Assembly (NCBI GenBank): GCA_018241785.1
Contig: JAFEDF010000232.1
Span: 1 to 64,000, forward strand
Reading direction: 5' to 3'
Origin: Pseudomonadota bacterium
GTDB lineage: Bacteria > Pseudomonadota > Gammaproteobacteria > Burkholderiales > Casimicrobiaceae
Length of the DNA: 64,000 nt
Shown here: in pieces, positions 1,352 through 35,403 of the stretch
How positions within the stretch are numbered: position 1 is the first letter of the stretch
Layout of the letters: every line of letters begins with the position of its first letter
Made by a program: the position numbers and the translations under genes
The notes under the pieces: model-generated
What the model was told of the DNA's origin: nothing
Database searches by the model: none
The model's input: the letters and a program-made list of their open reading frames with translations, nothing else

Positions 1352-2164
1352 CATCTGCAGCAGCGTGCCGCGCCGGCGCGCTGCGTGCACGGCAGCGGCG
1401 AACAGCACGACGCCGGCACCGAGATAGAGGGCGTCGAGCGCGAACGCCCGGTACAGGAGCGTCGCGTCGAACACGCCGTGCAGGAGCACGCCCCGCATGC
1501 CTTCGAACACGTGTGCGGCGGGAATCGCCTGCGCGATCGCCCGCAGCGGGGCCGGCAGCACGGCGATCGGGTAATAGACGCCCGAAACGGGAGCAATCAG
1601 GAAGATCGCCGCCCATGCGAGCTCCTCGGCGCCGAGCCCGTAGCGCAAGAGCATCGCCGCCACCGCGAGGCCGATCGACCAGCCGAACACCAGGAGGCCG
1701 CTGAAGAACGCGACCAGCGGCAACCCCATCGAGAAGATCGAGTAGCGGAAGAGCAGCCACGCGAACAGGCACGCCCCGCCGACGCCGATCAGCGTACGCA
1801 CGATGCTGAGCGCGAGCTGGCCGAGGATCAGCTCCTGCAGGCGTAGCGGACTCACGAAAAGGTTGCCGAGGTTGCGCGAGTAGATCTCCTCGACGAAGGT
1901 GAGGGAGACGCCGAGCTGGCCGCGGAAGAGGACGTCCCACAGGAGCACCGCGCCGATGAAGAATCCGGGCGCGCTCGCGAGGAAGCTGTTGGTCGGCGCG
2001 AGGTAGATCGTCACGAACGCCCACAGGATCATCGTGACCGTCGGGTAGTACGCCATCGACACGAGCCGCGGCCAGCTCCGCAGCAGCAGGTACATGTGAC
2101 GGCGGCAGATCGCGCGGATGCGCCGCAGCGACAGCGCGAGTTCCCGGCCCTCGCCCGGCGTCAC
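1343..2164 (-). CDS. ABC-2 type transporter permease
   Basis: This 273-residue integral membrane protein has about six hydrophobic segments, roughly at residues 35-60, 65-90, 115-140, 145-175, 180-205 and 240-265, as in ABC-2 exporter permeases (NodJ/drug/polysaccharide type). The region YSRNLGNLFVSPLRLQELIL is the conserved ABC-2 cytoplasmic loop. The GTG start overlaps the stop of the ATPase gene (GTGA), so the two form one export system. The substrate cannot be told from sequence. The final codon and stop lie inside the 1081-1351 palindrome, so the palindrome may have supplied or altered the C-terminus. Confidence 0.85.
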   Translation of the reverse strand: MTPGEGRELALSLRRIRAICRRHMYLLLRSWPRLVSMAYYPTVTMILWAFVTIYLAPTNSFLASAPGFFIGAVLLWDVLFRGQLGVSLTFVEEIYSRNLGNLFVSPLRLQELILGQLALSIVRTLIGVGGACLFAWLLFRYSIFSMGLPLVAFFSGLLVFGWSIGLAVAAMLLRYGLGAEELAWAAIFLIAPVSGVYYPIAVLPAPLRAIAQAIPAAHVFEGMRGVLLHGVFDATLLYRAFALDALYLGAGVVLFAAAVHAARRRGTLLQMGE

Positions 2165-2943
2165 CGCAGCATGCCCTCGGCGTGCAGGCCAGGAGCGGCC
2201 TCGTCGACGTTGCCGCGCGCGATGTCGAGAAACACCTCCTCCATCGAGTCGCGCCCGTAGCGCAGGATGAGCTCAGCCGGCGAACCCTGATCGACGATGC
2301 GTCCCGCGCGCAGCATCAGCACGTCGCTGCACATCCGCTCGACTTCGCCCATGTTGTGCGAGGCGAGCAGCATCGTGCAGCCGCTCGCCTTCTGGTAGCG
2401 CTCGAGGTAGCTTCGCATGCGGTCGCCGGCGTCGGGGTCGAGCGACGCCGTCGGCTCGTCGAGCAGCAGCAGTTCCGGCCGGTTGAGCAGCGCCTTGGCG
2501 AGCGAGACGCGCGTGCGCTGCCCGGCAGACAGTTCGCCGTAGGGTCGGCGGAGGATCGGTGCGAGGTCGAACTCGGCAGCGAGCTCGTCGATGCGCAGCG
2601 ACGGCTGCGCGACGCCGTAGAGGTCGGCGAAGACCGCGAGGTTCTCGCGCACGGTGAGCCGCTTCGGCAGGTCGACGTAGGGTGACGTGAAGTTGAGCCG
2701 CGGCAGCACGCGGTGGCGCTCGCGCAGCATGTCGCAGCCCAGCACCTCGATGCTGCCTCCGGTGGGCAGGAGGACGCCGAGCAGCATCGACAATGTCGTC
2801 GTCTTGCCGGCACCGTTGCCGCCGAGGAGCGCAGTGGTCGTGCCGGCGACGACGTCGAAGCTGATGCCGGCCACCGCCTCGACGCGCGCGTAGCGCTTGA
2901 CGAGCCCGCGCACCGAGATCGCGGCGGCCGGCGCGGTGGTCAG
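2161..2943 (-). CDS. ABC transporter ATP-binding protein
   Basis: This is the nucleotide-binding subunit of the exporter encoded with the next gene. Walker A reads GGNGAGKT, with Gly where Pro is usual. The signature is LSAGQRTR, and Walker B is LLLLDEPTASLDPD, followed by an H-loop in LLASHN. The family match starts around ISVRGLVKRYARVEAV. No ATG/GTG/TTG lies just upstream of it. I place the start at CTG 2943, which overlaps the deacetylase stop (CTGA). GTG at 2994 is the alternative and would add 17 residues. It is the middle gene of a tightly coupled three-gene leftward operon. Confidence 0.85.
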   Translation of the reverse strand: MTTAPAAAISVRGLVKRYARVEAVAGISFDVVAGTTTALLGGNGAGKTTTLSMLLGVLLPTGGSIEVLGCDMLRERHRVLPRLNFTSPYVDLPKRLTVRENLAVFADLYGVAQPSLRIDELAAEFDLAPILRRPYGELSAGQRTRVSLAKALLNRPELLLLDEPTASLDPDAGDRMRSYLERYQKASGCTMLLASHNMGEVERMCSDVLMLRAGRIVDQGSPAELILRYGRDSMEEVFLDIARGNVDEAAPGLHAEGMLR

Positions 2944-3863
2944 GCGATCACCAGCTCGCGCAGGTGCGCCACCGCGCTGCGTCCGAGGGCCGACAGCGCG
3001 TATCCCCCCTCGAGCGACGAGACGATCCGCGCATGACCGCAGCGCCTCGCCGCGGCGATCATCTCGCGCGTCACCCACGCGAAATCGTCCTCGGTGAACG
3101 AGAGGTTCGCGAGCGGGTCCTCATGATGGGCGTCGAATCCGGCGGAGAACAGGATCAGTTCCGGGCGGTGGGCTTCGAGCGCGGGAAGCCAGCGCTCGCG
3201 CACCGCGTCGCGCAATTCTCGCCCACCGCTGCCGGGCGGCAACGGAACATTCACCATGTTCGGTGCGGGATTGTCGAGCCCCGAGTAGGGATAGAGGGGA
3301 TACTGGAACGTCGACACCATCAGCACGCGCGGGTCGTCCGCGAAGATGTCCTCGGTGCCGTTGCCGTGGTGGACGTCGAAATCGACGATGGCCACACGCT
3401 CGAGGCCGTGCATGTCGAGCGCGTGGGCTGCGCCGACGGCGACGCTGTTGAATACGCAGAAGCCCATCGCGCGCGCCCGCTCGGCGTGATGGCCCGGCGG
3501 GCGCACCGCGCAGAACGCGTTCTGACAGCGCCCGGCCATGACGAGGTCGACCGCCTGGACGACCGCCCCTGCCGCATGCCTTGCAGCAGCGATCGAATGC
3601 GGGTTGAGCGCGGTGTCGGGATCGAGCCACGCGTGGCCGTGCGCCGGAGACGCCTGCGTGACGGCCTCGATGTAGTCGCGGCGATGCACGCGGGCGAGCG
3701 CGTCGTCGCTCGCCGGCTTCGCCGTGACGTGCGTGACGAGTGCGTCGAGCCCCGAGGCAATCAGCCGGTCGCCGATCGCCGTCAGCCGCTCCGGGGATTC
3801 CGGGTGCCCGGACCCCATCTCGTGCAGGAGGCAGGACGGGTGAGTGATGTAGGCGGTGGTCAA
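2940..3863 (-). CDS. Class II histone deacetylase-like / acetylpolyamine amidohydrolase family protein
   Basis: The 307-residue protein carries the zinc-dependent deacetylase fold. HPESPERL is near the N-terminus, followed by RPPGHHAE, DFDVHHGNGT (zinc ligands Asp and His), FSAGFDAHHEDPL (second zinc Asp) and EGGY (catalytic-site tyrosine of bacterial class II enzymes). It should remove acetyl groups from protein lysines or small amines in the cytoplasm. The start is TTG at 3863, giving LTTAYITHPS, where family similarity begins. It is the first gene of an operon with an ABC exporter, which hints at a small-molecule substrate, though similar enzymes also occur as general housekeeping genes. 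Confidence 0.85.
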   Translation of the reverse strand: MTTAYITHPSCLLHEMGSGHPESPERLTAIGDRLIASGLDALVTHVTAKPASDDALARVHRRDYIEAVTQASPAHGHAWLDPDTALNPHSIAAARHAAGAVVQAVDLVMAGRCQNAFCAVRPPGHHAERARAMGFCVFNSVAVGAAHALDMHGLERVAIVDFDVHHGNGTEDIFADDPRVLMVSTFQYPLYPYSGLDNPAPNMVNVPLPPGSGGRELRDAVRERWLPALEAHRPELILFSAGFDAHHEDPLANLSFTEDDFAWVTREMIAAARRCGHARIVSSLEGGYALSALGRSAVAHLRELVIA

Positions 3864-3997
3864 GGGTCGTCGTGCCGGTGGCAATCGGAGGTGCCGGAAG
3901 GTACAGGCGCCAGTGTACCGCCGACGACCTGCGGTGACGGCGCGCGCGGCCGCGCGGTAGAGTGCAGCATCGCCGTCACCGCCGTCGCGAGGATCCG

Positions 3998-4966
3998 ATG
4001 ACCGTCCGTTCCGTTTCGCAGAGCCTGCCGACCTCGCGACGTCTTGCCGGCGTTCTGCAGCAGGTCGCACAGGTCGTGGTCGGCAAGCACGAGCCGATCC
4101 GCCTCGCGCTCGCCTGCCTCGTTGCCCGTGGGCACCTCCTGATCGAGGACATTCCCGGCGTCGGCAAGTCGACGCTCGCGCAGGCGCTCGCTGCGGTCCT
4201 CGGGCTCCCGTACGCACGAATCCAGTTCACGAGCGACCTCCTGCCCGCCGACCTCCTCGGCGTGTCGATCTTCGACACCCAGTCGAGCGCGTTCCGCTTT
4301 CATCCGGGGCCGATCTTCCACTCGGTGGTGCTCGCGGACGAGATCAACCGCGCGCCGCCGAAGACGCAGAGCGCGCTGCTCGAGGCGATGGAGGAGCGCC
4401 AGGTGTCGCAGGACGGCGAGACGCGGCCGCTGCCCGACCCGTTCTTCGTGATCGCGACGCAGAATCCGGTCGAGCAGATCGGCACGAATCCGCTTCCCGA
4501 GTCGCAGCTCGACCGCTTCATGCTGGCGATCGAGCTCGGCTACCCCGACGCTTCGGCCGAGCGTGATCTGCTTGCCGGCGGCGACCGGCGCCGGCACCTC
4601 GACACGATCGTGCCCCAGGCCGACGCACCGACGCTGCGCGAGTGGCAGCGCGAAGCAGCGTCGGTTCACGTTGCGCCGGCGCTGCTCGACTACCTGCAGG
4701 CGATCCTCGCGGCGTCGCGCGGCCATGCCGCCGGAGCGCGCGGCGAGCAGCCCGGAGGAACGCCGCGACGAGGCCTGAGCCCGCGCGCCGGGCTGATGCT
4801 CGTCGCCGCTGCCCGCGCGTACGCGCTGATCGAAGGGCGCGCGATGGTGGTTCCCGAGGACCTGCAGGCGGTGTTCCCGGCAGTGGCCGGGCATCGCCTC
4901 GCCGGGGGTGCCCGCGCGGGTGCGGCGCTCGCACAGGCGCTGCTGCGTGCCGTGCCGCTGCCGTGA
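3998..4966 (+). CDS. MoxR-family AAA+ ATPase
   Basis: The 322-residue protein has Walker A GVGKST in IEDIPGVGKSTLAQAL, Walker B VVLADEINRAPPKTQSALLEAMEE, sensor 1 FVIATQNP and an arginine-finger region PESQLDRFML, all diagnostic of MoxR ATPases. These act as chaperone-like ATPases with von Willebrand-type partners. It is followed by a DUF58 gene and a transglutaminase-like membrane protein, the standard MoxR/DUF58/TgpA set. The ATG at 3998 (MTVRSVSQ) was preferred over an upstream in-frame ATG at 3962 because the family begins there. It diverges from the deacetylase operon. Confidence 0.92.
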   Translation: MTVRSVSQSLPTSRRLAGVLQQVAQVVVGKHEPIRLALACLVARGHLLIEDIPGVGKSTLAQALAAVLGLPYARIQFTSDLLPADLLGVSIFDTQSSAFRFHPGPIFHSVVLADEINRAPPKTQSALLEAMEERQVSQDGETRPLPDPFFVIATQNPVEQIGTNPLPESQLDRFMLAIELGYPDASAERDLLAGGDRRRHLDTIVPQADAPTLREWQREAASVHVAPALLDYLQAILAASRGHAAGARGEQPGGTPRRGLSPRAGLMLVAAARAYALIEGRAMVVPEDLQAVFPAVAGHRLAGGARAGAALAQALLRAVPLP

Positions 4967-8622: not shown

Positions 8623-9837
8623 CTACGCCGGAGGCAGGAACTTCTCCGGATCCATCGGCTTGCCGTAGCGCCGGATCTCGAAGTGAAGCTTCACCTGGTC
8701 CGAATCGGTGTTGCCCATCTGCGCGATCTCCTGCCCGCGCGCAACCTGCTGGCCCTCCTTCACGAGGAGCGCGCTGTTGTGCGCATAGGCCGACAGATAC
8801 ATCGCGTTGTGCTTGATGATGATGAGCTTGCCGTACCCGCGCAAACCGGAGCCTGCATAAACGACCTTTCCTGCCGCGCTCGCGTACACCGGCTCGCCCA
8901 TCGCGCCGGCGATGTCGATGCCCTTGAGATTCGCCGAATCGGAGAACTGCGCGATCACCTTGCCCTTCGCGGGCCACACCCAGCCGAGCTGGTCGTCGGT
9001 GCCGGTCGCAGCACCCGCCGGCGCAGCCGCGGCGGCAGCAGCGGGCGCCGGTGCCGCTTCATTCGCGCCGCTTCCGGATGCGGTCGATGCGGGAGCCGGC
9101 GCCGCGGGCTGCGTCGCAGCTTGCGCGGGTGCCGGCACCGACGCCGCGGCGAGATTGAGTTCGCGTACCGCGCGATCGGAGTACGGCAGCTTGACCGCCT
9201 TGGGCTCGGTCTCGATCGCCCCACCTGTGGGCGCTGCCGCCGACACTCCCGGCGTGGGCTGCGAAGGTGCGCCGCCCGCCGGACTCGCGCCGCCCGCGGG
9301 CGAGGACGCTCCGGGGCTTGCGACCGTCGCGCCGGGTTGCGACGGCACCGTCGACGCGACGATCGGCGGCTCGGTTCGAAGCGGCGTCACGGTCACTCCG
9401 GGTCCGGGCTGCGCGGTCGCGACGCTTCCGGCTTCAGGCGCCGCGGCGAGCGCGGCCGTGCCGTTCGCCGCGGTGCCCGCCGCCGCCGCGGCCTGGCCGG
9501 GTGCGGCAAGCTGCAGCACTTCGCCGACGTAGATTCGATCGATGTTGACGATGTGGTTCCACGCCGCGAGCTCGCGGTAGTCGAGGCCGTTGTCGAGCGC
9601 GATCTGGTAGAGCGTGTCGCCGCGCTTCACCGTGTAGGTCGCCGCGCGCCCGCCTTCCTGCGAACTTGCGCGCGCGCCGCCCGGCTTGCGCGCGCCCGCA
9701 GCCTTCACGGCGGGACGCTCCTCCACCGGCGCCGGATTGGGCGTCGCACATCCGGCGACGATCGAAGCGGCCACGATCAAAAGCGCAGCCGAGCGCACGG
9801 CGCACACGAAGGCGCCGGCTGGAAGTCGCGGAATCAT
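8623..9837 (-). CDS. nlpD: NlpD-like lipoprotein, LysM plus degenerate LytM/M23 domain (murein hydrolase activator)
   Basis: The 404-residue protein starts at ATG 9837, 31 bases after pcm. A lipoprotein signal ends in the lipobox IVAGC (about residues 26-30). A LysM domain (YTVKRGDTLYQIA..LDYRELAAWN) binds peptidoglycan. A long Ala/Pro-rich linker then leads to a C-terminal M23/LytM domain from about 285. The metal ligands are degenerate: the usual HxGID is LKGID and the HLHFE motif is KLHFE. This is expected for NlpD, which activates amidase AmiC at division rather than cutting peptidoglycan itself. It ends the surE-pcm-nlpD run; the usual next gene, rpoS, is not here. Confidence 0.9.
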   Translation of the reverse strand: MIPRLPAGAFVCAVRSAALLIVAASIVAGCATPNPAPVEERPAVKAAGARKPGGARASSQEGGRAATYTVKRGDTLYQIALDNGLDYRELAAWNHIVNIDRIYVGEVLQLAAPGQAAAAAGTAANGTAALAAAPEAGSVATAQPGPGVTVTPLRTEPPIVASTVPSQPGATVASPGASSPAGGASPAGGAPSQPTPGVSAAAPTGGAIETEPKAVKLPYSDRAVRELNLAAASVPAPAQAATQPAAPAPASTASGSGANEAAPAPAAAAAAAPAGAATGTDDQLGWVWPAKGKVIAQFSDSANLKGIDIAGAMGEPVYASAAGKVVYAGSGLRGYGKLIIIKHNAMYLSAYAHNSALLVKEGQQVARGQEIAQMGNTDSDQVKLHFEIRRYGKPMDPEKFLPPA

Positions 9838-9868
9838 GGTTGAAGCGACTGATGCACGCGGCAAAGGT

Positions 9869-10585
9869 TCAGGCGAGACCCGCAAGGAGGGGCACGAAGC
9901 GAACGGCTTCGAACGTCTGCTCGCGCACGCCCGTCGGTCCGAGCTCGATCACCGTGAGGTGCTGCGTGCGGCGATCGTCGGCATCGCCCCCGGTGAGCGG
10001 CAGCACCATGCGCCCCCCCGGCTTCAGGCATTTCAGCAGCGGCGTCGGCACGTGTGCCGTGCCCGCCGTCACCACGATCGCATCGACCTCGAGCTTCTCG
10101 CCGAGATCGGCGCTGCCGTCGGCGTGAGCGAGGTGGACGTTCTTGATCTTCAGCGCCTGCAGGTGGCGCCGCGCCTTGTTGACCAGTGCGCCGATGCGCT
10201 CGACCGTGTAGACGGTGCCGGCGAGGTGCGCGAGCACGGCGGTCTGGTAGCCGCATCCGGTCCCGATCTCGAGCACGCTTTCGAGATCGCGGCCGTTTCG
10301 CGCGAGCTCGGTCATCCGCGCGACCACCCACGGCTGCGAGATCGTCTGCCCGTGCCCGATCGGAAGGGGCTCGTTGTCGTAGGCGCGGATCGCGAGCGCC
10401 TCCTCGACGAAGATGTGGCGCGGCACCGCGTTCATCGCCGCCAGCACGACCTCGTCGCGAATGCCGTCGGCGCGCAGGCGCTCGATCATCCGCGCGCGTG
10501 TCCGGTCGGACGTCATGCCGATGCCGCTCGTGCCGCTGCGATTGCCGGTCCCCGCCCCGCCCATTGCCAGCCCGTCCCCTCTCAT
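9869..10585 (-). CDS. pcm: Protein-L-isoaspartate O-methyltransferase
   Basis: The 238-residue enzyme repairs isoaspartyl residues in damaged proteins using S-adenosylmethionine. Motif I is [16 protein letters not shown]. The family signatures [23 protein letters not shown] and [13 protein letters not shown] are present, and the C-terminal PGGRMVLPL strand is clear. The ATG at 10585 overlaps the surE stop (ATGA), which explains the somewhat long Gly-rich N-terminus ([14 protein letters not shown]). An alternative start would be the internal Met in [13 protein letters not shown]. The coupling with surE is the widespread surE-pcm pair. Confidence 0.93.
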
Positions 10586-25949: not shown

Positions 25950-28900
25950 TCACCTCGAAAGCGCGGTCCAGGCGCGCTCGATTCGCCTGAATGACACAGG
26001 TACCGGCGTGCGCAGCTCCTGGGCGAACAACGACACCCGCAGCTCCTCGATCATCCAGCGGAACGCCTCGAGTCCGGGCGAATGGCGATCGTCCCGGCGT
26101 TCGGCGGCCGCGCGGTCGACGTAGCGTGCCCACCAGAGCGCGACCTCGGCAGCGTGCCGCGCGTCGCGCTCGGGATGGTCGCGAACGCGCTGCAGCCGCC
26201 GCTGGAGCGCCTGCAGGTAGCGCGGCAGGTGGCGCAGGTGTTCCCACGGCGTGGCCGCGAGGAATCCCGGATAGACGAGCGCGTCGAGCTGCGCACGCGC
26301 TTCGCGGGCGAGCCCGCGCTGACCCGGCGCAAGCGCGTCGACCTGCCGCAACACCGACAGGTACTCGGTGGCCACCTCGGAGACGACGGCGCGGGCCGAG
26401 TCGACGACGGCCGGCAGGCGCACGCGCGCCCGCGCGACGAGCGCCGCGAACGCGTCCGCGTCGCGCGGCAGCGGGTCGTCGCCGACGAACGCGCGGTCGG
26501 CGACCGCAGCCGCCAGGTCCTCGTGCAGGCGCTCGGGGGTCATCGCCGTGCGAAGCTTCAACGCGACGCCTGCAACGCCGGACGCAGCCGCGAGCCGCTT
26601 GCGCAGCGCCCCGCCGATCGCCAGCGCAACGAGCCGCGCGACGCCGCGTCGCGACAGCGCGGCCGCGGCATCCTCCCGGTCCTGCAGCGTCAGCGCTACG
26701 CTCTCGCCTTCGTCGACGATCGCCGGCCACGCGACCGTCCGGCCACCGGCGGCCTCGATGGCGAGCGACTCGGGCAACGTCCCGAAGTCCCAGGCAACGA
26801 GCCCGCTTCGTTCGAAGGCGGGCGTCGAGGCCGCGAGGGAGAGGCGCAGCGTCTCGCCAAGACGCGCGCGCAGCGCAGCGAGGTCGCGGTCGGAGTCGAT
26901 CTCGGTGCCGTCGGCGTCGACCGCCTCGACGTTCATCCGCCACTGGACAGGCACCGCGCGGGCGTCGAAGCAGGTGGCGGGAGGCGTCTCGCCGAGACGG
27001 CGCCCGAGGAACGCGCGCAGCGCTTCGGTCACCGGAACGCTGCGGTCGGGCTCGCCGACGAGAAACTCCGTCACCGTCTCGGCCATCGGTGCTGCGCGCT
27101 GCCGCCATGCCTTGGGCAGCGCCTTCAGGTGGTGGGTCAGCTTGTCGCGGATCATGCCCGGGACGAGCCAGTCGAGCGCGGCCGCGTCGACCTGGTTGAG
27201 GAGGGCGAGTGGCACGACGACGGTGACGCCGTCGCGCGGATCGCCCGGAGCGAACCGGTAGCGAAGCGCGAGGTCGTTTCCGGCGACGTGCAGCGTCGGC
27301 GGAAACAGCTCCTCGGTCACCAGCTCGGCCGCATGACGCATCAACTCGTCGCGCGTGAACACAAGGCAATCGGGATCGGCCGCCTCGGCGCGCCGGCGCC
27401 AGTGCTCGAAGGCGGCGCGCGTCGCGATGTCCTGCGGAATCCGCGCCGCGTAGAGCGCGACGAGCGCCTCCTCGTCGACGAGGACGTCCTGCCTTCGCGC
27501 CTTGTGCTCGAGCTCGATCACCTCGTCGATCAGCGTGCGGTTGCGAGCGAGAAACGGCGCGTCGACGCCGAGCTCGCCGCCGACCAGCGCTTCGCGTACG
27601 AACACCTCGCGGGCGAGCGCGGGATCGATCCGGCCAAACGAAACGGGCCGCCTCGCGCACAGCGTGAGACCGTAGAGCTTCACGCGCTCGCTCGCCACGA
27701 CCTCGCCGCGCGCACGGTCCCAATGGGGCTCGAAGTGCTCGCGATCGACGAGCGATCCCGCCTCGGACTCGATCCACGCCGGCTCGACCAGGGCCGCGCA
27801 GCGCGCGTAGAGCCGCGTCGTCTGCGTAAGCTCGGCGGCGACGACCCAGCGCGGGGGCTTCTTCGCGATGCCCGAGCCCGGATGCAGCCGGAAGACGAGG
27901 CCGCGCGCACCGTCGTACTGCCCGGGTGCGGCACCCTGCACGGTGGCGCGCGTTCCGACGTTGCCGAGGAGCCCCGCGAGGAGCGCCCGATGCAGCGCCT
28001 CGTAGCGCGCGGCGTCGATCGTCGGCGGCAGCGATGTGTCGACCCGCCATCCCGCTTCGACGAGCGCCTGGCGCAGCTGCGCATGGACATCGCGCCATTC
28101 GCACAGACGCAGGAACGACACGAAGTGCGCGCGGCAGGCTTCCACGCGGCGCCGGTGGGTCAGGCGCTCGCGCAGCGCATCGTCGAAGAACTCCCACAGC
28201 GCAAGGAGCGACAGGAAATCGCTGCGCGCGTCGCGGAAGCGAAGCTGGGCCTGGTCGGCGGCCTGCGCGCGCTCGAGCGGGCGCTCGCGCGGATCGGGCA
28301 CGGCAAGCGCGCTCGCGACGACGAGCGCCTCGGCGAGGCAGCCGCGGTCGCGCGCAGCCTGCACGATGCGCGCGACGCGCGGATCGAGCGGGAGCCTCGC
28401 GAGCTCGCGCCCGCCCGCGGTCAGCCGGCCCGTGGCGTCGAGCGCGCCGAGCTCTTCGAGCTGCCGGCGGCCGTCGGCGATCGCGCGCGGCAGCGGCGGA
28501 TCGACGAACGGGAACGCAGCCGGATCGCCGAGGTCGAGCGCCGCCATGCGCAGGATCACTCCGGCGAGCGAACTCCTCTGGATCTCGGGGTCGGTGTGCG
28601 TCGGACGCGCCGCATAGTCGTCCTCGGCGTAGAGCCGCACGCAGACGCCGGGGCCGAGGCGGCCGCAGCGCCCGGCGCGCTGGTCGGCCGAGGCGCGGGA
28701 GATTTTCTCGATTGCGAGCTGTGTCGTCCGGTTGCGCGTCGAATAGCGCTTGATGCGCGCCTGTCCGCTGTCGATCACGTAGCGGATACCGGGCACCGTG
28801 AGCGAGGTCTCGGCGACGTTGGTGGCGAGCACGATGCGCCGGCCCCGCGACGGCGCGAAGACGCGCTGCTGCACGTCGAATGCGAGCCGCGCGTACAGCG

Positions 28901-29921
28901 GCAGCACTTCGACCGAGGCCGCCCACGGGCGCGCGGTGAACGCCGCGCGCAGCACGTCGGCGGTCTCGCGGATCTCGCGCTCGCCGGGGAGGAACGCGAG
29001 GATGTCGCCGGGGCCCTCGCGCCACAGCTCTTCGGCGGCGGCAGCCATCGCGTCCTCGAGCGCCTCCTCGTCGTCGGGCTCGTCGGAAGTCCCGGAGAGC
29101 GGCCGGTAGCGGACCTCGACCGGATGACCGCGGCCCGATACCCGGATCACCGGGGCGGGGCCGGCTGCTCCGGCGAAGTGATGCGCGAAGCGCTCGGTGT
29201 CGAGTGTCGCCGAGGTGATCACGACGCGAAGGTCGGCGCGCCTTCGCACGAGCTCGCGCAGGTAGCCGAGCAGGAAGTCGATGTTGAGGCTGCGCTCGTG
29301 CGCTTCGTCGATGATGATCGTGTCGTAGCGCAGCAGGTCGCGATCGCGCTCGGTCTCGGCGAGCAGGATGCCGTCGGTCATCAGCGTCACGTAGCCTTCG
29401 CGCCGCGCCCGCTCGGCGAAGCGCACGCGGTAGCCGACCGCGCCGCCGATCTCGGTGTGGAGTTCCTGCGCGACGCGCGCGGCGACCGAGCGCGCGGCGA
29501 GCCGGCGCGGCTGCGTATGCGCAATCTGGCCGCGCTCGCCGCGCCCTGCGGCGAGGCAGATCTTCGGGAGCTGCGTCGTCTTGCCCGAACCCGTCTCACC
29601 GGCGACGATCACCACCGGGTGCGCGCGGATCGCAGCGGCGATCTCGTCGGCCCTTGCGGATACCGGCAGCTCGGGCGGGAGATCGAAAGCCGGCTTGCCC
29701 GCCGCGCGCAGGTCGCGCAGCCTGCGCGAGCGCTCGATCTCGGCGGCGATCCTCGCGAGCGCAACGGCACCCGCACCGGCACCCGCACGCTGCCGCTCGC
29801 AGCGATCGATGCGCACGCGAAGACGCGGCGCATCGACTGCCATGACGCCGGCGAGCGCCGCGCGCAGCGCGCCCATCGAGGGTGGTGCCGCCCCGGCGCG
29901 GGCACCTCGCTCTTCGGTCAC
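25950..29921 (-). CDS. hrpA: ATP-dependent RNA helicase HrpA (DEAH box)
   Basis: The 1323-residue helicase is the full HrpA size. Motifs are GETGSGKTTQLPK (Walker A, about residues 108-120), TQPRRLAARSVA (Ia), DEAHERSLNIDFLLGYL (DEAH box), ITSATLD (III), ATNVAETSLTVPGI (V) and DQRAGRCGRLGPGVCVRLY (VI). The HA2, OB-fold and long C-terminal DUF3418-like regions follow. HrpA rescues stalled ribosomes and processes some mRNAs in other bacteria. GTG 29921 overlaps the stop of the upstream CPBP gene (GTGA); ATG 29876 is an alternative. The gap to the following DUF1631 gene is 131 bases. Confidence 0.95.
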   Translation of the reverse strand: MTEERGARAGAAPPSMGALRAALAGVMAVDAPRLRVRIDRCERQRAGAGAGAVALARIAAEIERSRRLRDLRAAGKPAFDLPPELPVSARADEIAAAIRAHPVVIVAGETGSGKTTQLPKICLAAGRGERGQIAHTQPRRLAARSVAARVAQELHTEIGGAVGYRVRFAERARREGYVTLMTDGILLAETERDRDLLRYDTIIIDEAHERSLNIDFLLGYLRELVRRRADLRVVITSATLDTERFAHHFAGAAGPAPVIRVSGRGHPVEVRYRPLSGTSDEPDDEEALEDAMAAAAEELWREGPGDILAFLPGEREIRETADVLRAAFTARPWAASVEVLPLYARLAFDVQQRVFAPSRGRRIVLATNVAETSLTVPGIRYVIDSGQARIKRYSTRNRTTQLAIEKISRASADQRAGRCGRLGPGVCVRLYAEDDYAARPTHTDPEIQRSSLAGVILRMAALDLGDPAAFPFVDPPLPRAIADGRRQLEELGALDATGRLTAGGRELARLPLDPRVARIVQAARDRGCLAEALVVASALAVPDPRERPLERAQAADQAQLRFRDARSDFLSLLALWEFFDDALRERLTHRRRVEACRAHFVSFLRLCEWRDVHAQLRQALVEAGWRVDTSLPPTIDAARYEALHRALLAGLLGNVGTRATVQGAAPGQYDGARGLVFRLHPGSGIAKKPPRWVVAAELTQTTRLYARCAALVEPAWIESEAGSLVDREHFEPHWDRARGEVVASERVKLYGLTLCARRPVSFGRIDPALAREVFVREALVGGELGVDAPFLARNRTLIDEVIELEHKARRQDVLVDEEALVALYAARIPQDIATRAAFEHWRRRAEAADPDCLVFTRDELMRHAAELVTEELFPPTLHVAGNDLALRYRFAPGDPRDGVTVVVPLALLNQVDAAALDWLVPGMIRDKLTHHLKALPKAWRQRAAPMAETVTEFLVGEPDRSVPVTEALRAFLGRRLGETPPATCFDARAVPVQWRMNVEAVDADGTEIDSDRDLAALRARLGETLRLSLAASTPAFERSGLVAWDFGTLPESLAIEAAGGRTVAWPAIVDEGESVALTLQDREDAAAALSRRGVARLVALAIGGALRKRLAAASGVAGVALKLRTAMTPERLHEDLAAAVADRAFVGDDPLPRDADAFAALVARARVRLPAVVDSARAVVSEVATEYLSVLRQVDALAPGQRGLAREARAQLDALVYPGFLAATPWEHLRHLPRYLQALQRRLQRVRDHPERDARHAAEVALWWARYVDRAAAERRDDRHSPGLEAFRWMIEELRVSLFAQELRTPVPVSFRRIERAWTALSR

Positions 29922-32900
29922 CCCGGATGCGCTGCGGCCGCCGCCGCGGACGCCACCGGCTGCGTGCGCAGCCACGCCGTCATGCGCCAGGCGACGACGA
30001 GCATGACCGCGGCTTCGACGACGAACCACGAAAGCGTGCCGGCACGCGTCGCCTGCGCCAATCCGTCGAGGAGCGCGACCGTCGCCGCGAAGGCGGGCAC
30101 GTAGCGAAGATCGAAGCGCAGGAAGAGGAGCACGACGGCCGACGCGGCGACGCCTCCGGCGAGCCCCGCCGCGAGCGACGCCACCGGTGCGCTGCGACCA
30201 TGCGCGAGCGCGGTCGCGCACTCGAGTGCGATCACGATCGCAACAGCCAGCCACACCCTGCGCGTCCAGCCGCGCGTCAGGAGCGACGCTGCGTGAACGA
30301 CGAAGAGCTCGATGCAGGCGACCACGAGGAATGCCGCTCCGGAGAGCGCCGCGGCGATCCACGGCGAATAGGCCGCGCGCCACGCGAGGTCGGGCCACAA
30401 CGGAACGTCGCGCGCACCCGGTGCGGCGAGCAGCGCCTGTGCGCCGACGACCAATGCGCCTGCCGCAACCGCAGCGGCCATCGGCGGGAGCCTGCCGGCG
30501 AGGCGAAACGGAGCGAGCGCACGGGCGCCGTATCCACCGACCCCGGCACACAGTCCGACGACGAGCGCGACGACGAGCGCCGACACGAGCACACCGAGCG
30601 CCTTGATGGCGATCTGCGCCGGCACCGGCTCGGTCGTCGACAGTCCCATCGCGGCTTGTGGCCAGCCGTTTGCCGCCGCCAGCACGACGAGCGCGAACGT
30701 CACCCCGGCGACCGACTTCAACGCACGGCCATCGACGCGACGCGCGATCCAGCTCCGGATGCCGACGATCAGTGCGGCGAGCGCCGCCGCGCCGAACACC
30801 GCAAGCGCACCGAGCTCGAGGATCTGCAGCCAGTTGTCGCGCGCCTGCTCTCCGCGCAGCCACGTCTGCGGCAGATGTACGAAGCGCCCCGCGGCGATCG
30901 GCCGGTCACCGCCGATGCCGATCACGTAGCGAGCTTCGGCACCCTTGCCGACGTCCGCTTTCGGGTCCGCCCAGACGAACGACCAGTCGACCCGCGCCGG
31001 CCGCCGCTGCTGTTCGGCCGCAACCTCCTTCAGCGTGTCGGCATCGACGCCGAACTCGGTAGCGAGCTCCTTCGCGGCGAGCGAGCGGGCGGCATCCTGC
31101 GTGAGGCTCGCGCCCGCGCGCCCCTCGGGGAGCACGTGCACGAAGCTTCGCACGCTGCCGTCGTTGTCGATGCCGATGCGCCATTCCTCGGCGCGCGCCG
31201 AGACGTCGCCGTCGAAGCGCGCGTAGCGCACCTCCCATACCGGCGGCGCGAGGACACCGCCGACGAGCCCGCGGTAGGCCTTCGCTCCCGCTTCCTGCCA
31301 CACGAAGCGATGCCATGCCCACTGTTGCGGATCGGCGTTCGCGAGCTTCTCGCCGGCGAAGCGATGCCAATCGGGCGCCAGCGTCACGCCGCGCGCGGCG
31401 AGCGCTGCGTCGGCGGCACGGATCGCGCCGGCGCGATCGAGGGTCAGGGGTGCGACGTCGGCGCGAAACGGCGTGAAGGCCGCCCACGCGACGAGCCCGG
31501 CCAGGCCAAGCGCCGGAAGCACGCGCTGGAAGCTCGTTGCGAGCGAGCCGGCCACCGTCGCCTGCGCGGCGGCGGGCGGCGGCTGGGAAGCATCCTTGCG
31601 CGCATGCCATCCGCCGTTCAGCAACGCGTCGGGGAGCGGCCTCCATCCACCCGCCTGCAGCCTTCGCCAGGCGACGACGGCGAGCGGCACCAGCGCCGCG
31701 GCGATCACCAGCGCCTGCTGCAGGTGTGCGCCGCGCCCGGCGTAGAGGAAGAGCGGAATCGAGAAGAGCGAGAGGTCGAAGCACGCGTGGAGCACGATCG
31801 TCGGCAAGAGACCGAAGCGCAGGAAGATCAGCGCCCAGACGATCGCCGGCCCGAACAGCTCGACCGGACGCGACCACGCCGGAAAGCCCGGGTAGTTCGC
31901 ATGCGCCGAGCCAAAGACGAGCGCCTGCAGCACGACGGCGATCGCGATGCCGAGCCCGCGCCGCCCGTAGCGCGCGCCGATCAGCGCGCCGAGCGAGAGC
32001 GGAATCGCGCGGAACACGCACTCCTCCATGAAGCCCGCCTGCAGCGAGATCGCGATCGGAGCTGCCGCCGGCACCGCCGAGCCGAGGATGTTGGGATCGG
32101 TCAGCACTTCGGAGGGCTGCCACCAGCCGAGCCAGCGGTTGGTCGCGTAGTAGAAGGCCGCGATCAGCGCGAGCTCGATCGGCACGAAGAGGTAACCGCC
32201 GAGCGTGCGGCCGAGCACCTGCGGCGTCGCTGCGGCGTCGCGCGACCACACGCGCCAGAGCTGCGGCTGCTTCGGAAACGCCGATCGCGACAGGCTCTCG
32301 GCGGCGAGAAAGGCGAGTGCGTACGCAAGCCCGCCGCCGATCGCGATCAGCAGCGCGGTCGCCGCCTGGCGAGTCCAGAAGCTCGCGACCGTCTGCGTCG
32401 TGTCGGCGCCGAACCACGCGACCGGCGCCGCCGCGAGCGACGATCCGGCGAGCAGGACCCCGACGCAGAGTCCCGCCACGAGCGCAGGGCGAATCACCAG
32501 CGCGTGCCTGCGCGCGAGCCAGAGCACGCCCAGCACGCAGCCGCCGATGCCGTAGAGCACGCCGGCGGCGACGTCGGCGAGCTGGGCGATGAGGTCGTTC
32601 GCGCTGCGCAGTTCGGCATAGCGCCGCGCAAACGACTCCGGCACGTGGACGAACGGTGTGATGCCGACGAGCGTGTCCCCGGCGACGTCAAGGCGCAGGC
32701 GCACGCGGGCCTCGCCGAGCGCCTCCGGCTGCTCATAGGTGAAGCGGTGATCGACACGGCCGCCGGGCTCGGTCTGCTGCGAATGCTCGAGGAAGCGATA
32801 GCGAGCAAGGTCGACGCCCCAGTCGCGCATCGCGGCCGCTTCGGCGATCGCGCGCGCCTCCGTCTCGTCGAGCGCCTTGCGCGCCGGGTCGCGAACCCAC

Positions 32901-33349
32901 GTCTCGGGCACCTTGCGGGCGAAGCCGTCGACGCGCCCGTCGGGCGCAAGACGGACCACCGTCTCGTCGATCGCGCCGGGCGTGAAGAGGCGCACGTCCC
33001 ACCAGTAAGGCGCGTAGACGTTACCGCGTGTCAGCTTGGCGAAGGCCGCCTTGCCTCCGCCTTCGAGCTCGATGTAGTTCTGCGTCGCCGAATCGTGCGC
33101 GAAGCGCACCGTGTCGCGCGCGTCGGCGGGTGCGAGATGCAGCCGTGCCGCGATCGCGCGCGCCTTCGCGATCGCGTCGGTCCGCGACATCGTGATGTCG
33201 AGGTTGACGATCGGGATCGCGCGCGGAAAGAGCTCGAGTGCGACGGCGAGCGCGACGAGCGACGCGACCGCGTAGACGACCCAGAACGCCGGCGTGCGGG
33301 TGATCGGTCGGTTCGCCGTCGAAGGATCGGGCGTGGCGCGCGGGGTCAT
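29918..33349 (-). CDS. Giant CPBP-family intramembrane metalloprotease with duplicated extracytoplasmic domain
   Basis: The protein has 1143 residues, versus roughly 200-300 for ordinary CPBP (Rce1/Abi-like) proteases. The CPBP motifs are clear: EECVFR (442-447), FGSAH (479-483) and HACFD (521-525), within about eight hydrophobic segments (255-570). A first helix lies at 21-42. Flanking the protease are two related soluble regions, about 48-252 and 634-840. Shared features are WWDVRLFTPGA/VWEVRYARFDG, VVRLAPDGRVDGF/EWRIGIDNDGSVRSF and FVHVPESF/FVHLPQTW. About eight more hydrophobic helices follow (840-1130). The substrate is unknown. It is the first gene of a leftward group with hrpA, whose start overlaps its stop. 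Confidence 0.85.
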   Translation of the reverse strand: MTPRATPDPSTANRPITRTPAFWVVYAVASLVALAVALELFPRAIPIVNLDITMSRTDAIAKARAIAARLHLAPADARDTVRFAHDSATQNYIELEGGGKAAFAKLTRGNVYAPYWWDVRLFTPGAIDETVVRLAPDGRVDGFARKVPETWVRDPARKALDETEARAIAEAAAMRDWGVDLARYRFLEHSQQTEPGGRVDHRFTYEQPEALGEARVRLRLDVAGDTLVGITPFVHVPESFARRYAELRSANDLIAQLADVAAGVLYGIGGCVLGVLWLARRHALVIRPALVAGLCVGVLLAGSSLAAAPVAWFGADTTQTVASFWTRQAATALLIAIGGGLAYALAFLAAESLSRSAFPKQPQLWRVWSRDAAATPQVLGRTLGGYLFVPIELALIAAFYYATNRWLGWWQPSEVLTDPNILGSAVPAAAPIAISLQAGFMEECVFRAIPLSLGALIGARYGRRGLGIAIAVVLQALVFGSAHANYPGFPAWSRPVELFGPAIVWALIFLRFGLLPTIVLHACFDLSLFSIPLFLYAGRGAHLQQALVIAAALVPLAVVAWRRLQAGGWRPLPDALLNGGWHARKDASQPPPAAAQATVAGSLATSFQRVLPALGLAGLVAWAAFTPFRADVAPLTLDRAGAIRAADAALAARGVTLAPDWHRFAGEKLANADPQQWAWHRFVWQEAGAKAYRGLVGGVLAPPVWEVRYARFDGDVSARAEEWRIGIDNDGSVRSFVHVLPEGRAGASLTQDAARSLAAKELATEFGVDADTLKEVAAEQQRRPARVDWSFVWADPKADVGKGAEARYVIGIGGDRPIAAGRFVHLPQTWLRGEQARDNWLQILELGALAVFGAAALAALIVGIRSWIARRVDGRALKSVAGVTFALVVLAAANGWPQAAMGLSTTEPVPAQIAIKALGVLVSALVVALVVGLCAGVGGYGARALAPFRLAGRLPPMAAAVAAGALVVGAQALLAAPGARDVPLWPDLAWRAAYSPWIAAALSGAAFLVVACIELFVVHAASLLTRGWTRRVWLAVAIVIALECATALAHGRSAPVASLAAGLAGGVAASAVVLLFLRFDLRYVPAFAATVALLDGLAQATRAGTLSWFVVEAAVMLVVAWRMTAWLRTQPVASAAAAAAHPG

Positions 33350-33417: not shown

Positions 33418-35403
33418 ATGCCGGAAGTGCCCCGCGGAACGGTCACGCTCCTCTTCACCGACGTCGAGGGAAGCACGCGGCTGTGGGAGACCCACCCGGA
33501 GGCGATGCGCGCAGCGCTCGCGCGCCACGATGCACTCTTGCGCCAGTGCATCGGCGGCCACGACGGCCACGTCTTCAAGACCGTCGGCGACGCGTTCTGC
33601 GCGGCGTTCCACACGGCGCCCGACGCGCTCGCCGCGGCGCTCGAAGCCCAGCGCGCGCTGCAGCGCGAGCCGTGGCCCGAGGGCGCAAGGCTTCGCGCGC
33701 GGATGGCGCTCCACAGCGGCGCGGCGGAGCATCGCGACGGCGACTACTTCGGCGCCCCGCTCAACCGGGTCGCGCGGCTACTCGCCACCGGCCACGGCGG
33801 ACAGACGCTCCTCTCCGAGGCCGCCCACGACCTCTGTCGCGACCAGCTGCCGCCGCTCGCGAGCACCCGATCGCTCGGCGTTCACGGGCTGAAGGACCTC
33901 GGCCGGCCCGAAGCGGTGTTCCAGCTCTGCCACCCCGAGCTTCCCGACGATTTCGCGTCGCTGCGCTCCGAAGTGACGCCGGCGGAGACCGAGACGCCCT
34001 CGATCGCCGTGCTGCCGTTCGTCAACATGAGTCGCGACGAGGAAAACGAGTACTTCGCCGACGGATTGTCCGAGGAACTCCTCAACGTGCTGGCGAAGAT
34101 CCGCGGCCTGCGCGTCGCGTCGCGCACCTCCGCATTTTCGTTCAAGGGCAAGGACGTCGACATTCCGACGGTCGCGCGCAAGCTCAACGTCGCGACGGTG
34201 CTCGAAGGCAGCGTGCGCAAAGCCGGCAAGCGCGTGCGCATCACCGCCCAGCTGATCGACGTGGCTTCCGATTCGCACCTCTGGTCCGAGACCTACGACC
34301 GCGAGCTCGACGACATCTTCGTGGTCCAGGACGACATCGCGCAATCGGTGGTCAAGGAGCTGCGCACGACCTTGCTCGGAACCTCGGCCGATGCCCCGGC
34401 GGCGGCGATGGCGGCAGAAACGATGGCAGCGGCCGCCGTGCGCAAAGCTGCGAGCGGTCGCACCGGCAATCCGGAAGCGTTCCAGCTCTACCTGCAGGGG
34501 AAGGTCCTCGGCGAACGCGTGACGCAGGCGGACACCGACAAGGCCATCGCGCTCTTCGAACGCGCGCTCGCGCTCGATCCGCGCTTTGCGCTGGCGTGGG
34601 CCGGACTGTCGCGCGTGCACCAAACGCAAGCGGGGTTCGGTTTCGCGCCGATCGACGAAGGCTACGAGCGCGCGCGCGAGGCCGCGCAGCAGGCGCTGCG
34701 TGCGGATGCCGACCACGTCGAGGGCCATCTCGCGCTCGCGGCGGTCCTCGAGCTACACGACTGGAACTGGCCGGCAGCCGACGCGGCGCTCCGGCGCGCG
34801 CTCGAGCTCGCACCGGGCGACGCGAATGCGCTGCAAGCGGCAGCAGGACTCGAGCGGATCCTCGGCCACATCGAACGCGCGCTCGAGCTGGTCGCGGCAT
34901 CGATTACGCTCGATCCACTCTCGGCGCACGCGCAACGGCAGGCCGGACTCATCTACCTGATCGCCGATCGCCCTGGCGACGCGGCGGCCGCGCTCCAACT
35001 CGCGCTCGACCTCAGCCCGGGCAGGGGCCTCAACCACGCGTTCCTGGCGATCGCCCGGCTCCGGCAGGGGCGCGCCGAGGAGGCCCTCGGCATCGCGGCG
35101 GCCGAAGTGCACGACGTGTTCCGCAATCTCGCGCTCTCGATGTGCCATCACGCGCTTGGGCACCGCGAGGAGTCGGACGCGGCGCTCGCGACACTCGCCG
35201 CCGATTTCGGCTGGACCGCCGCCTACCAGGTCGCCGAGGCCCATGGGTACCGCAATGAAGTCGGCGCGGCGTTCGAATGGCTCGATCGCGCATGCGCGCA
35301 GCGCGATCCCGGAGTGATTTTTGCCGCGACCGATCCGCTCTTCCGGCCGCTCCACGCCGACCCGCGCTGGCCGGCGTTCCTGCGCCGCATCAACCTCGGG
35401 TAA
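33418..35403 (+). CDS. Class III adenylate/guanylate cyclase with TolB-like domain and TPR repeats
   Basis: The 661-residue soluble protein begins with a class III nucleotide cyclase domain (7-170). Its metal aspartates are Asp15 in FTDVEGST and Asp58 in KTVGDAF, and the NRVAR segment (116-120) holds the transition-state pair. Residues about 195-330 resemble the TolB/FlgO-like N-terminal domain (SIAVLPFVNMSRDEENEYFADGLSEEL). After a linker, several TPR-like helical pairs run from about 350 to 610 (AIALFERALALDPRFALAWAGL). It probably makes cAMP in response to protein contacts. No signal or membrane helix is seen. It diverges from the CPBP gene; a TATGAT box (33383-33388) could be its -10. An 8-bp stem (35408-35415 with 35443-35450) lies in the gap after its stop. 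Confidence 0.85.
   Translation: MPEVPRGTVTLLFTDVEGSTRLWETHPEAMRAALARHDALLRQCIGGHDGHVFKTVGDAFCAAFHTAPDALAAALEAQRALQREPWPEGARLRARMALHSGAAEHRDGDYFGAPLNRVARLLATGHGGQTLLSEAAHDLCRDQLPPLASTRSLGVHGLKDLGRPEAVFQLCHPELPDDFASLRSEVTPAETETPSIAVLPFVNMSRDEENEYFADGLSEELLNVLAKIRGLRVASRTSAFSFKGKDVDIPTVARKLNVATVLEGSVRKAGKRVRITAQLIDVASDSHLWSETYDRELDDIFVVQDDIAQSVVKELRTTLLGTSADAPAAAMAAETMAAAAVRKAASGRTGNPEAFQLYLQGKVLGERVTQADTDKAIALFERALALDPRFALAWAGLSRVHQTQAGFGFAPIDEGYERAREAAQQALRADADHVEGHLALAAVLELHDWNWPAADAALRRALELAPGDANALQAAAGLERILGHIERALELVAASITLDPLSAHAQRQAGLIYLIADRPGDAAAALQLALDLSPGRGLNHAFLAIARLRQGRAEEALGIAAAEVHDVFRNLALSMCHHALGHREESDAALATLAADFGWTAAYQVAEAHGYRNEVGAAFEWLDRACAQRDPGVIFAATDPLFRPLHADPRWPAFLRRINLG

Follow-up and report, generated by a model that had tools for sequence, protein, structure and literature searches.

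We studied the gene at positions 29918-33349 (minus strand) of a 64,000-nucleotide stretch of DNA, here called the window, from contig JAFEDF010000232.1 of a Casimicrobiaceae genome (GenBank: GCA_018241785.1). Its product may best be read as a signal-controlled intramembrane glutamic protease with the CPBP (Rce1-like) fold, built of two fused units of which the second has become a pseudoprotease; we give this reading a probability of roughly 0.55. By profile comparison, the protein consists of one unit fused to a second copy of itself, the unit combining a sensor-like part with a membrane protease part. We call the N-terminal and C-terminal copies half 1 and half 2, and their soluble regions R1 and R2. 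The open reading frame starts with ATG and codes for 1143 amino acids (aa) without an internal stop. Residue k corresponds to positions 33349-3k+1 to 33349-3k+3 on the minus strand, which gives the following features, with TM standing for transmembrane:

29918-33349, minus strand: whole gene, encoding a 1143-aa duplicated PepSY2-CPBP membrane protein (open reading frame and AlphaFold2 model)
33218-33292, minus strand: first TM helix of half 1, residues 20-44 (model), the N-terminus being cytoplasmic by the positive-inside rule
32642-33208, minus strand: soluble copy R1, residues 48-236, predicted to be extracytoplasmic, with PepSY-type subdomains at about 56-146 and 162-235 (model, fold match and charges)
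31652-32638, minus strand: predicted nine-helix bundle of half 1, residues 238-566, containing the CPBP core (model and PF02517)
32009-32026, minus strand: EECVFR, residues 442-447, the EExxxR motif (sequence and alignment)
31901-31915, minus strand: FGSAH, residues 479-483, the FxxxH motif, with a conserved ANYPGFP loop after it (sequence and alignment)
31775-31789, minus strand: HACFD, residues 521-525, the HxxxD motif (sequence and alignment)
31475-31546, minus strand: first TM helix of half 2, residues 602-625 (model)
30875-31435, minus strand: soluble copy R2, residues 639-825, with its elements ordered as in R1 and predicted to be extracytoplasmic (profiles, BLASTP, model and charges)
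29966-30868, minus strand: predicted nine-helix bundle of half 2, the pseudoprotease half, residues 828-1128, without the catalytic residues (profiles, model and alignment)

Typical CPBP or Rce1-like proteins are far shorter than 1143 aa. A first-pass annotation, made from the letters of the window, had noted the CPBP motif set EECVFR, FGSAH and HACFD inside an overlong protein. All three motifs are present, and a 326-aa fragment carrying them matches the Rce1-like family (Pfam: PF02517) with an E-value of 3.6e-11 and 43.7 bits, above the cut-off of 22.4. With the full-length protein as query, no family was found in NCBIfam, and none in Pfam at E ≤ 1, so that no SpoIIE domain (Pfam: PF07228) was found either. 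The window fragment scores 12.3 bits against the NCBIfam model MroQ (NF046050), below its equivalog cut-off of 270, and ABC_perm_CPBP (NF041647, equivalog cut-off 435) was hit only by two relatives below that cut-off, L138 with 18.8 bits and L178 with 12.8 bits. In Pfam and NCBIfam we found no curated family with this length and architecture, and none is described in the open-licence papers that we searched.

The duplication is visible in the single window sequence, in which BLASTP aligns the two soluble regions with 28% identity over 162 columns (E 5e-11). Comparing the profile of residues 48-246 with that of residues 632-836 gives an E-value of 1.5e-28, against 0.017 in a control with reversed columns. 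These alignments uphold the first-pass proposal that the flanking regions are copies of one another. The similarity extends into the membrane: profiles of half 1 and half 2 align over 393 columns, covering residues 50-473, with an E-value of 1.3e-35 (reversed 0.026). Restricted to the membrane parts, the comparison gives 4.3e-9 (reversed 0.16). Thus the earlier picture of one protease flanked by two soluble domains holds for the two soluble copies and fails for the single protease: it is the whole sensor-plus-protease unit that is doubled, and its second copy is dead.

An AlphaFold2 model of the 1143-aa protein, built from 52 sequences, has a mean predicted local distance difference test (pLDDT) score of 93.2 and a predicted template modelling (pTM) score of 0.90. 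In the model each half consists of one TM helix, a soluble PepSY-type pair and nine further helices. The first-pass annotation had counted about eight helices after the second soluble copy, one fewer than the model gives. The nine helices of the half 1 bundle lie at residues 238-280, 287-313, 321-357, 376-407, 429-460, 464-482, 493-512, 514-529 and 541-566, and those of half 2 at 828-868, 874-900, 909-944, 956-975, 996-1024, 1032-1050, 1055-1077, 1081-1103 and 1106-1128. The halves were compared by the order and number of their model elements together with the profile alignments, and short breaks inside helices were bridged by hand.

R1 was also modelled alone (pLDDT 95.3, pTM 0.90). Its best match in the Protein Data Bank is the C-terminal domain of YpeB (PDB: 5boi), the sole Foldseek row below 0.001, with an E-value of 4.3e-4. 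A comparison with VIA aligned 141 residues of 5boi to residues 6-193 of the R1 model with a Z-score of 11.6 and a root mean square deviation (rmsd) of 4.7, the second row having a Z-score of 7.3; R2, taken from the full model, gives a Z-score of 11.4. As modelled, R1 and R2 are both tandem PepSY-type folds. The domain that the first-pass annotation had called uncharacterised, while correctly recognised as a duplicated soluble domain, has a fold of the PepSY/YpeB type. Sequence profiles back this fold weakly: among the 52 aligned rows, the YcdB/YcdC family (Pfam: PF16244) is matched at E ≤ 0.01 by R2 in 7/52 and by R1 in 1/52. Two relatives exceed its cut-off of 27, namely L061 (L numbers denote collected loci) with 30.2 bits and the SpoIIE fusion L162 with 27.2 bits. 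We also looked for an internal repeat within each soluble copy and rejected it: similarity between subdomains a and b was weak, with probabilities of 6% for R1a/R1b, 47% for R2a/R2b and 73% for R1b/R2a. Because of this weak profile similarity, the subdomains are named PepSY-like by their fold and not by mutual sequence similarity.

The mean net charges of the 52 rows alternate along the chain. In half 1 the N-terminus carries +1.8, R1 -4.7 and the next loop +3.3, followed by loops of -1.0, +2.1, -1.9 and +2.8 and by short loops near neutral (+0.9, +0.5, -0.2, -0.1). In half 2 the series begins with R2 at -4.7 and goes on with +2.8, -0.3, +1.1, -0.4 and +2.7, the short loops again being near neutral. 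Following the positive-inside rule, both R1 and R2 are therefore predicted to lie outside the membrane. In the model E442/E443, H483, H521 and D525 are closer to the outer than to the inner ends of their helices, and the active site probably opens toward the PepSY side, as judged from these helix ends and not from a measured depth. Two structural searches added little. The 52-row profile found no relative among solved structures by sequence (best E-value 0.45), and Foldseek with the full model gave no row below E 0.001, a result that is uninformative for a membrane protein of 1143 residues.

The fate of the catalytic residues separates the two halves. We scored the catalytic set E442, E443, R447, H483, H521 and D/N525 in an alignment of 140 units, and found it complete in 52/52 first halves (at H483 partly by construction, as set out below) and in 0/52 second halves. 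These 52 rows are the window protein and 51 of the 79 loci from our profile scan; the other 28 were left out as contig-end cuts, broken frames or near-duplicates. A second duplicated subfamily repeats the pattern, with the complete set in 2/2 first halves and 0/2 second halves. Few columns are conserved in the half 2 membrane part, and on the alignment evidence half 2 is a pseudoprotease, which keeps the scaffold and the PepSY pair and has lost the catalytic residues. The R-x-D motif in the second PepSY subdomain (R198/D200 in half 1, R786/D788 in half 2) behaves differently from the catalytic set: its R is found in 52/52 first and 52/52 second halves, its D in 52/52 and 51/52, and each of them in 2/2 of both halves in the second subfamily. 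We count its retention in half 2, where catalysis is lost, in favour of a sensor role.

The same PepSY2-membrane unit also occurs outside the duplicated architecture, in two other forms. Ten loci (L136-L139, L141-L144, L178, L179) code for a single unit of about 550-650 aa. The complete catalytic set is present in 10/10 of these, as are the R and the D of the R-x-D motif, and all three single units tested reach the Pfam cut-off of PF02517. The other form has about 800-880 aa and carries the unit N-terminally and a SpoIIE domain (PF07228) C-terminally in 22/22 proteins. Here the complete catalytic set is found in 0/22, the R in 18/22 and the D in 16/22. Single-unit and SpoIIE examples were picked by frame length, so the SpoIIE domain in all fusions is partly a matter of selection, and the presence or loss of the catalytic set is not. 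Both forms were collected with a PepSY profile, which has no bias toward H483. Three fusions exceed the PF02517 cut-off of 22.4 (L163 with 29.2, L164 with 28.4 and L165 with 32.9 bits), the other tested fusions being below it, and these scores directly identify the membrane part of the three as a CPBP relative. Frames of 797-902 aa account for about 70 matches in the KSB1-type phylum, as counted by eye, and 18/18 of those fetched were SpoIIE fusions.

A set of 14 fetched loci included L140 and L145, which were excluded from the single-unit class because their best match is R2 and they look like pieces of the duplicated form. L118 and L140, both of genome G664, carry an R1-type and an R2-type half of the gene, separated by about 650 kb of the same 5.1-Mb contig, which looks like a gene split by a rearrangement or an assembly error. 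At L147 two adjacent minus-strand frames, 1930-4437 and 2-1816, both carry a PepSY2-membrane unit; the first is a SpoIIE fusion, and the second begins a SpoIIE-like part and was omitted from the class, being cut by the contig end.

In 22/22 of the SpoIIE phosphatases examined the unit stands N-terminally, which lends indirect support to a sensor role. Since the fusions have lost the catalytic set and mostly keep R-x-D, the unit appears to be useful without proteolysis, as a sensor would be. The PepSY2-CPBP unit thus looks like a sensory module with an exchangeable output.

In a tree of 63 units, 20/20 first halves form one group and 20/20 second halves another (support 100/100 each). The halves of the second subfamily join the matching groups (99/97 and 100/99), and first halves cluster with four active single units (100/98). 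The tree was rooted at its midpoint and contains several long rows. On its basis, the simplest reading is that a single duplication in an ancestor preceded the spread across phyla and that half 2 lost catalysis. Neither the SpoIIE units nor the single units form one group each. Some units from records of different phyla lie close together in the tree, L079 with L089 (100/100) and L107 with L070 (up to 100/100), which points to transfer or to bins assigned wrongly. A further locus, L042, comes from a record titled Bordetella parapertussis, which is probably a mislabelled metagenome bin, and its protein is 54% identical to that of the window.

The taxonomic survey shows that the duplicated architecture is patchy across many phyla. 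Among relatives of the window the gene is found in 27/100 genomes and 3/47 genera, and phylum samples yielded it in no genome other than that of the window (1/398, or 1/299 with the unit profile). A profile scan of genome contigs detected at least 79 loci, whose full-length frames mostly have 1,100-1,145 aa. Their record titles name Betaproteobacteria, Gammaproteobacteria, Acidobacteria, Gemmatimonadetes, Eisenbacteria, KSB1, Opitutia, Kiritimatiellaeota, Cloacimonadota, Dependentiae/Babeliales, Clostridium and others. PepSY profiles matched 39/297 genomes in the phylum of L072 (titled Acidobacteriota), 24/150 in that of L089 (Gemmatimonadales), 60/82 in that of L061 (KSB1) and 7/299 in that of L103 (Clostridium carboxidivorans), where the match in C. 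carboxidivorans is strong and the other six are weak (E 2e-6 to 6e-5). Spread on mobile elements was considered and dropped: there was no plasmid match and none in viral contigs searched with six peptide patterns, the phages collection being outside the search.

We propose the following mechanism. Half 1 would be the protease, with the EE, H, H and D residues lying in the membrane on the side of the PepSY pairs. These pairs would bind a ligand, a peptide or a protein outside the membrane, and binding may shift the helix at the entry of the bundle, so that a membrane-bound substrate gains or loses access to the active site. Half 2 would serve as a second sensor and as a regulatory partner built into the same chain. 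Precedents in its favour are the regulators SpdC and Abx1, YpeB and the myxosortase, which are compared with the window protein further below. Several observations weigh against this proposal. Protease activity, ligand and substrate are what we infer, and fusion to a phosphatase suggests sensing without proving it. The window's own R1 and R2 match no Pfam PepSY-type profile at E ≤ 0.01. Residues 259-531 of the model align to SpdC (PDB: 6u0o_A) over 170 residues with a Z-score of 7.6 and an rmsd of 4.5, which is under the safe level for helical bundles. One of the two patterns used to collect the duplicated loci, AHANYPGF, covers H483, so the 52/52 at this position is partly by construction. 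Finally, when the neighbouring frames of the collected loci were clustered, no neighbour common across phyla emerged that could indicate a substrate.

If the PepSY pairs serve to dock or chaperone an exported, membrane-anchored substrate, the protein would be a constitutive processing protease that needs no signal. We consider this unlikely. The myxosortase, in the accessible part of its description (PMC11980579), is a protease of the CPBP type whose substrates are exported proteins, and R1, which sits beside the active half, shows more conservation than R2, with a mean column identity of 53% vs 40%, as a docking surface might. The gene is also chromosomal, has a patchy distribution and is accompanied by no regulator common to the phyla. 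However, docking for proteolysis would be senseless on SpoIIE phosphatases without catalytic residues, and no target gene was recognised beside the gene.

Two other explanations are less probable still. Half 1 could be a non-proteolytic membrane enzyme or scaffold of the CPBP fold, for example one that modifies lipids or lipoproteins, in which E, H and D are used otherwise. Reportedly, one component of a two-component lipoprotein N-acyltransferase system is a CPBP protein. The kinase regulator SpdC, according to the available text of PMC5854430, is a CPBP-fold protein with another role. Such a reading is quite improbable, given that all six catalytic-type positions are kept in the 52/52 first halves and the 10/10 single units and that the window fragment and the tested single units reach the Rce1-like cut-off. 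The duplication might instead be purely structural, with half 2 a leftover folding scaffold that has no regulatory part, which would suit its faster evolution (end branches of 0.54-2.61 vs 0.22-1.31 in half 1) and its poorly conserved membrane part. Yet a mere scaffold would hardly need the whole PepSY pair that half 2 retains, with H738, R786 and G814 invariant in 52/52 and a length that is constant across phyla, and we regard this last explanation as very unlikely.

Beyond the signal-controlled protease itself, we tentatively suggest, at odds slightly short of even, that the PepSY2 pair with its nine-helix CPBP bundle represents an unrecognised class of transmembrane receptors whose output is exchanged between proteolysis, a SpoIIE phosphatase and a fused live/dead pair. 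If true, single units and half 1 would signal by proteolysis and the SpoIIE fusions through a partner-switching phosphatase after the death of the protease site. To our knowledge, the control of bacterial CPBP proteases is mostly unknown. The natural series of active protease, live/dead tandem and dead phosphatase input would make it testable and suggests how a membrane receptor could evolve out of an intramembrane protease, and it would establish PepSY domains as elements that feed signals into membrane proteases.

The genes downstream of the window gene, on the same strand, code, by their Pfam matches, for an HrpA-type helicase, a DUF1631 protein and a MaoC protein, in agreement with the gene group named in the first-pass annotation. 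The helicase has these coordinates:

25953-29747, minus strand: HrpA-type DEAH helicase, downstream (Pfam; the bounds are those of the reading frame)

The HrpA linkage is kept among close relatives, with HrpA downstream on the same strand in 16/26 betaproteobacterial-type loci. Eight of the 10 loci without it have fewer than 600 bases of downstream sequence, and the other two have 2,065 (L040) and 6,385 bases (L055). Because no neighbour is shared across phyla, the HrpA-DUF1631-MaoC grouping says little on function. The neighbourhood was rejected as a guide to function in general, families being shared inside close groups such as nine near-identical Gemmatimonadetes-type loci. Once loci had been collapsed to protein clades, neighbour families present in at least three clades came mostly from Dependentiae/Babeliales-type loci, a few of them also including L093 (titled Epsilonproteobacteria) and L097 and L057 (both titled Eisenbacteria), and no general pattern emerged.

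On the other side of the window gene, 69 bases from its start codon, a divergent gene (33418-35403, plus strand) codes for an adenylate/guanylate cyclase domain with TPR repeats on its C-terminal side. The Clostridium loci L102, L103 and L108 have an apparent chemoreceptor-type protein upstream of the gene and, as judged by eye, an apparent GntR-type regulator with an ABC transporter downstream, seen at no other locus. Directly upstream of the duplicated gene of L061, positions 8954-9871 code for a 306-aa membrane protein that by eye resembles a small CPBP protein.

In the open-licence literature, no paper was found on CPBP with SpoIIE, searches for CPBP or CAAX with PepSY returned only work unrelated by title, and a search for RsbU with a CAAX protease and a sensor gave nothing beyond the SpdC paper (PMC5854430). 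The known systems that come closest share single traits with the window protein. CPBP or Rce1-like proteins (PF02517) have the motifs EExxxR, FxxxH and HxxxD in common with it, and its half 1 fragment passes their Pfam cut-off, whereas the window protein is a doubled unit of 1143 aa that carries two PepSY pairs, predicted to be extracytoplasmic, and whose second half is dead. The C-terminal domain of YpeB (5boi) shares the tandem PepSY-type fold, and YcdB/YcdC (PF16244) is matched above its cut-off by the relatives L061 and L162; in the window protein, whose own copies reach no Pfam cut-off of the PepSY type, the pairs sit within a protease unit, inserted between its membrane helices. The accessible text of PMC13393411 proposes that YpeB, outside the membrane, keeps SleB, an enzyme, in an inactive state. 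With SpdC and Abx1 the window protein may share a CPBP-type membrane fold used in signalling, the model match to SpdC being the one given above (Z-score 7.6). According to the part of PMC5854430 available, SpdC is a CPBP/Abi protein that controls histidine kinases by transmembrane contacts, and Abx1 binds CovS; in that text both are separate from their output and a PepSY pair is not described, while half 1 of the window protein retains the catalytic set. The myxosortase MrtX is likewise a CPBP protease, a sorting protease whose proposed substrates are exported, membrane-anchored proteins, and in the accessible portion of PMC11980579 it has seven TM helices without a duplicated unit or a PepSY pair. 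SpoIIE/RsbU-type PP2C phosphatases (PF07228) share the whole PepSY2-CPBP unit, N-terminal in 22/22 relatives; in contrast to them, the window protein has no SpoIIE domain and its first unit carries the complete protease set.

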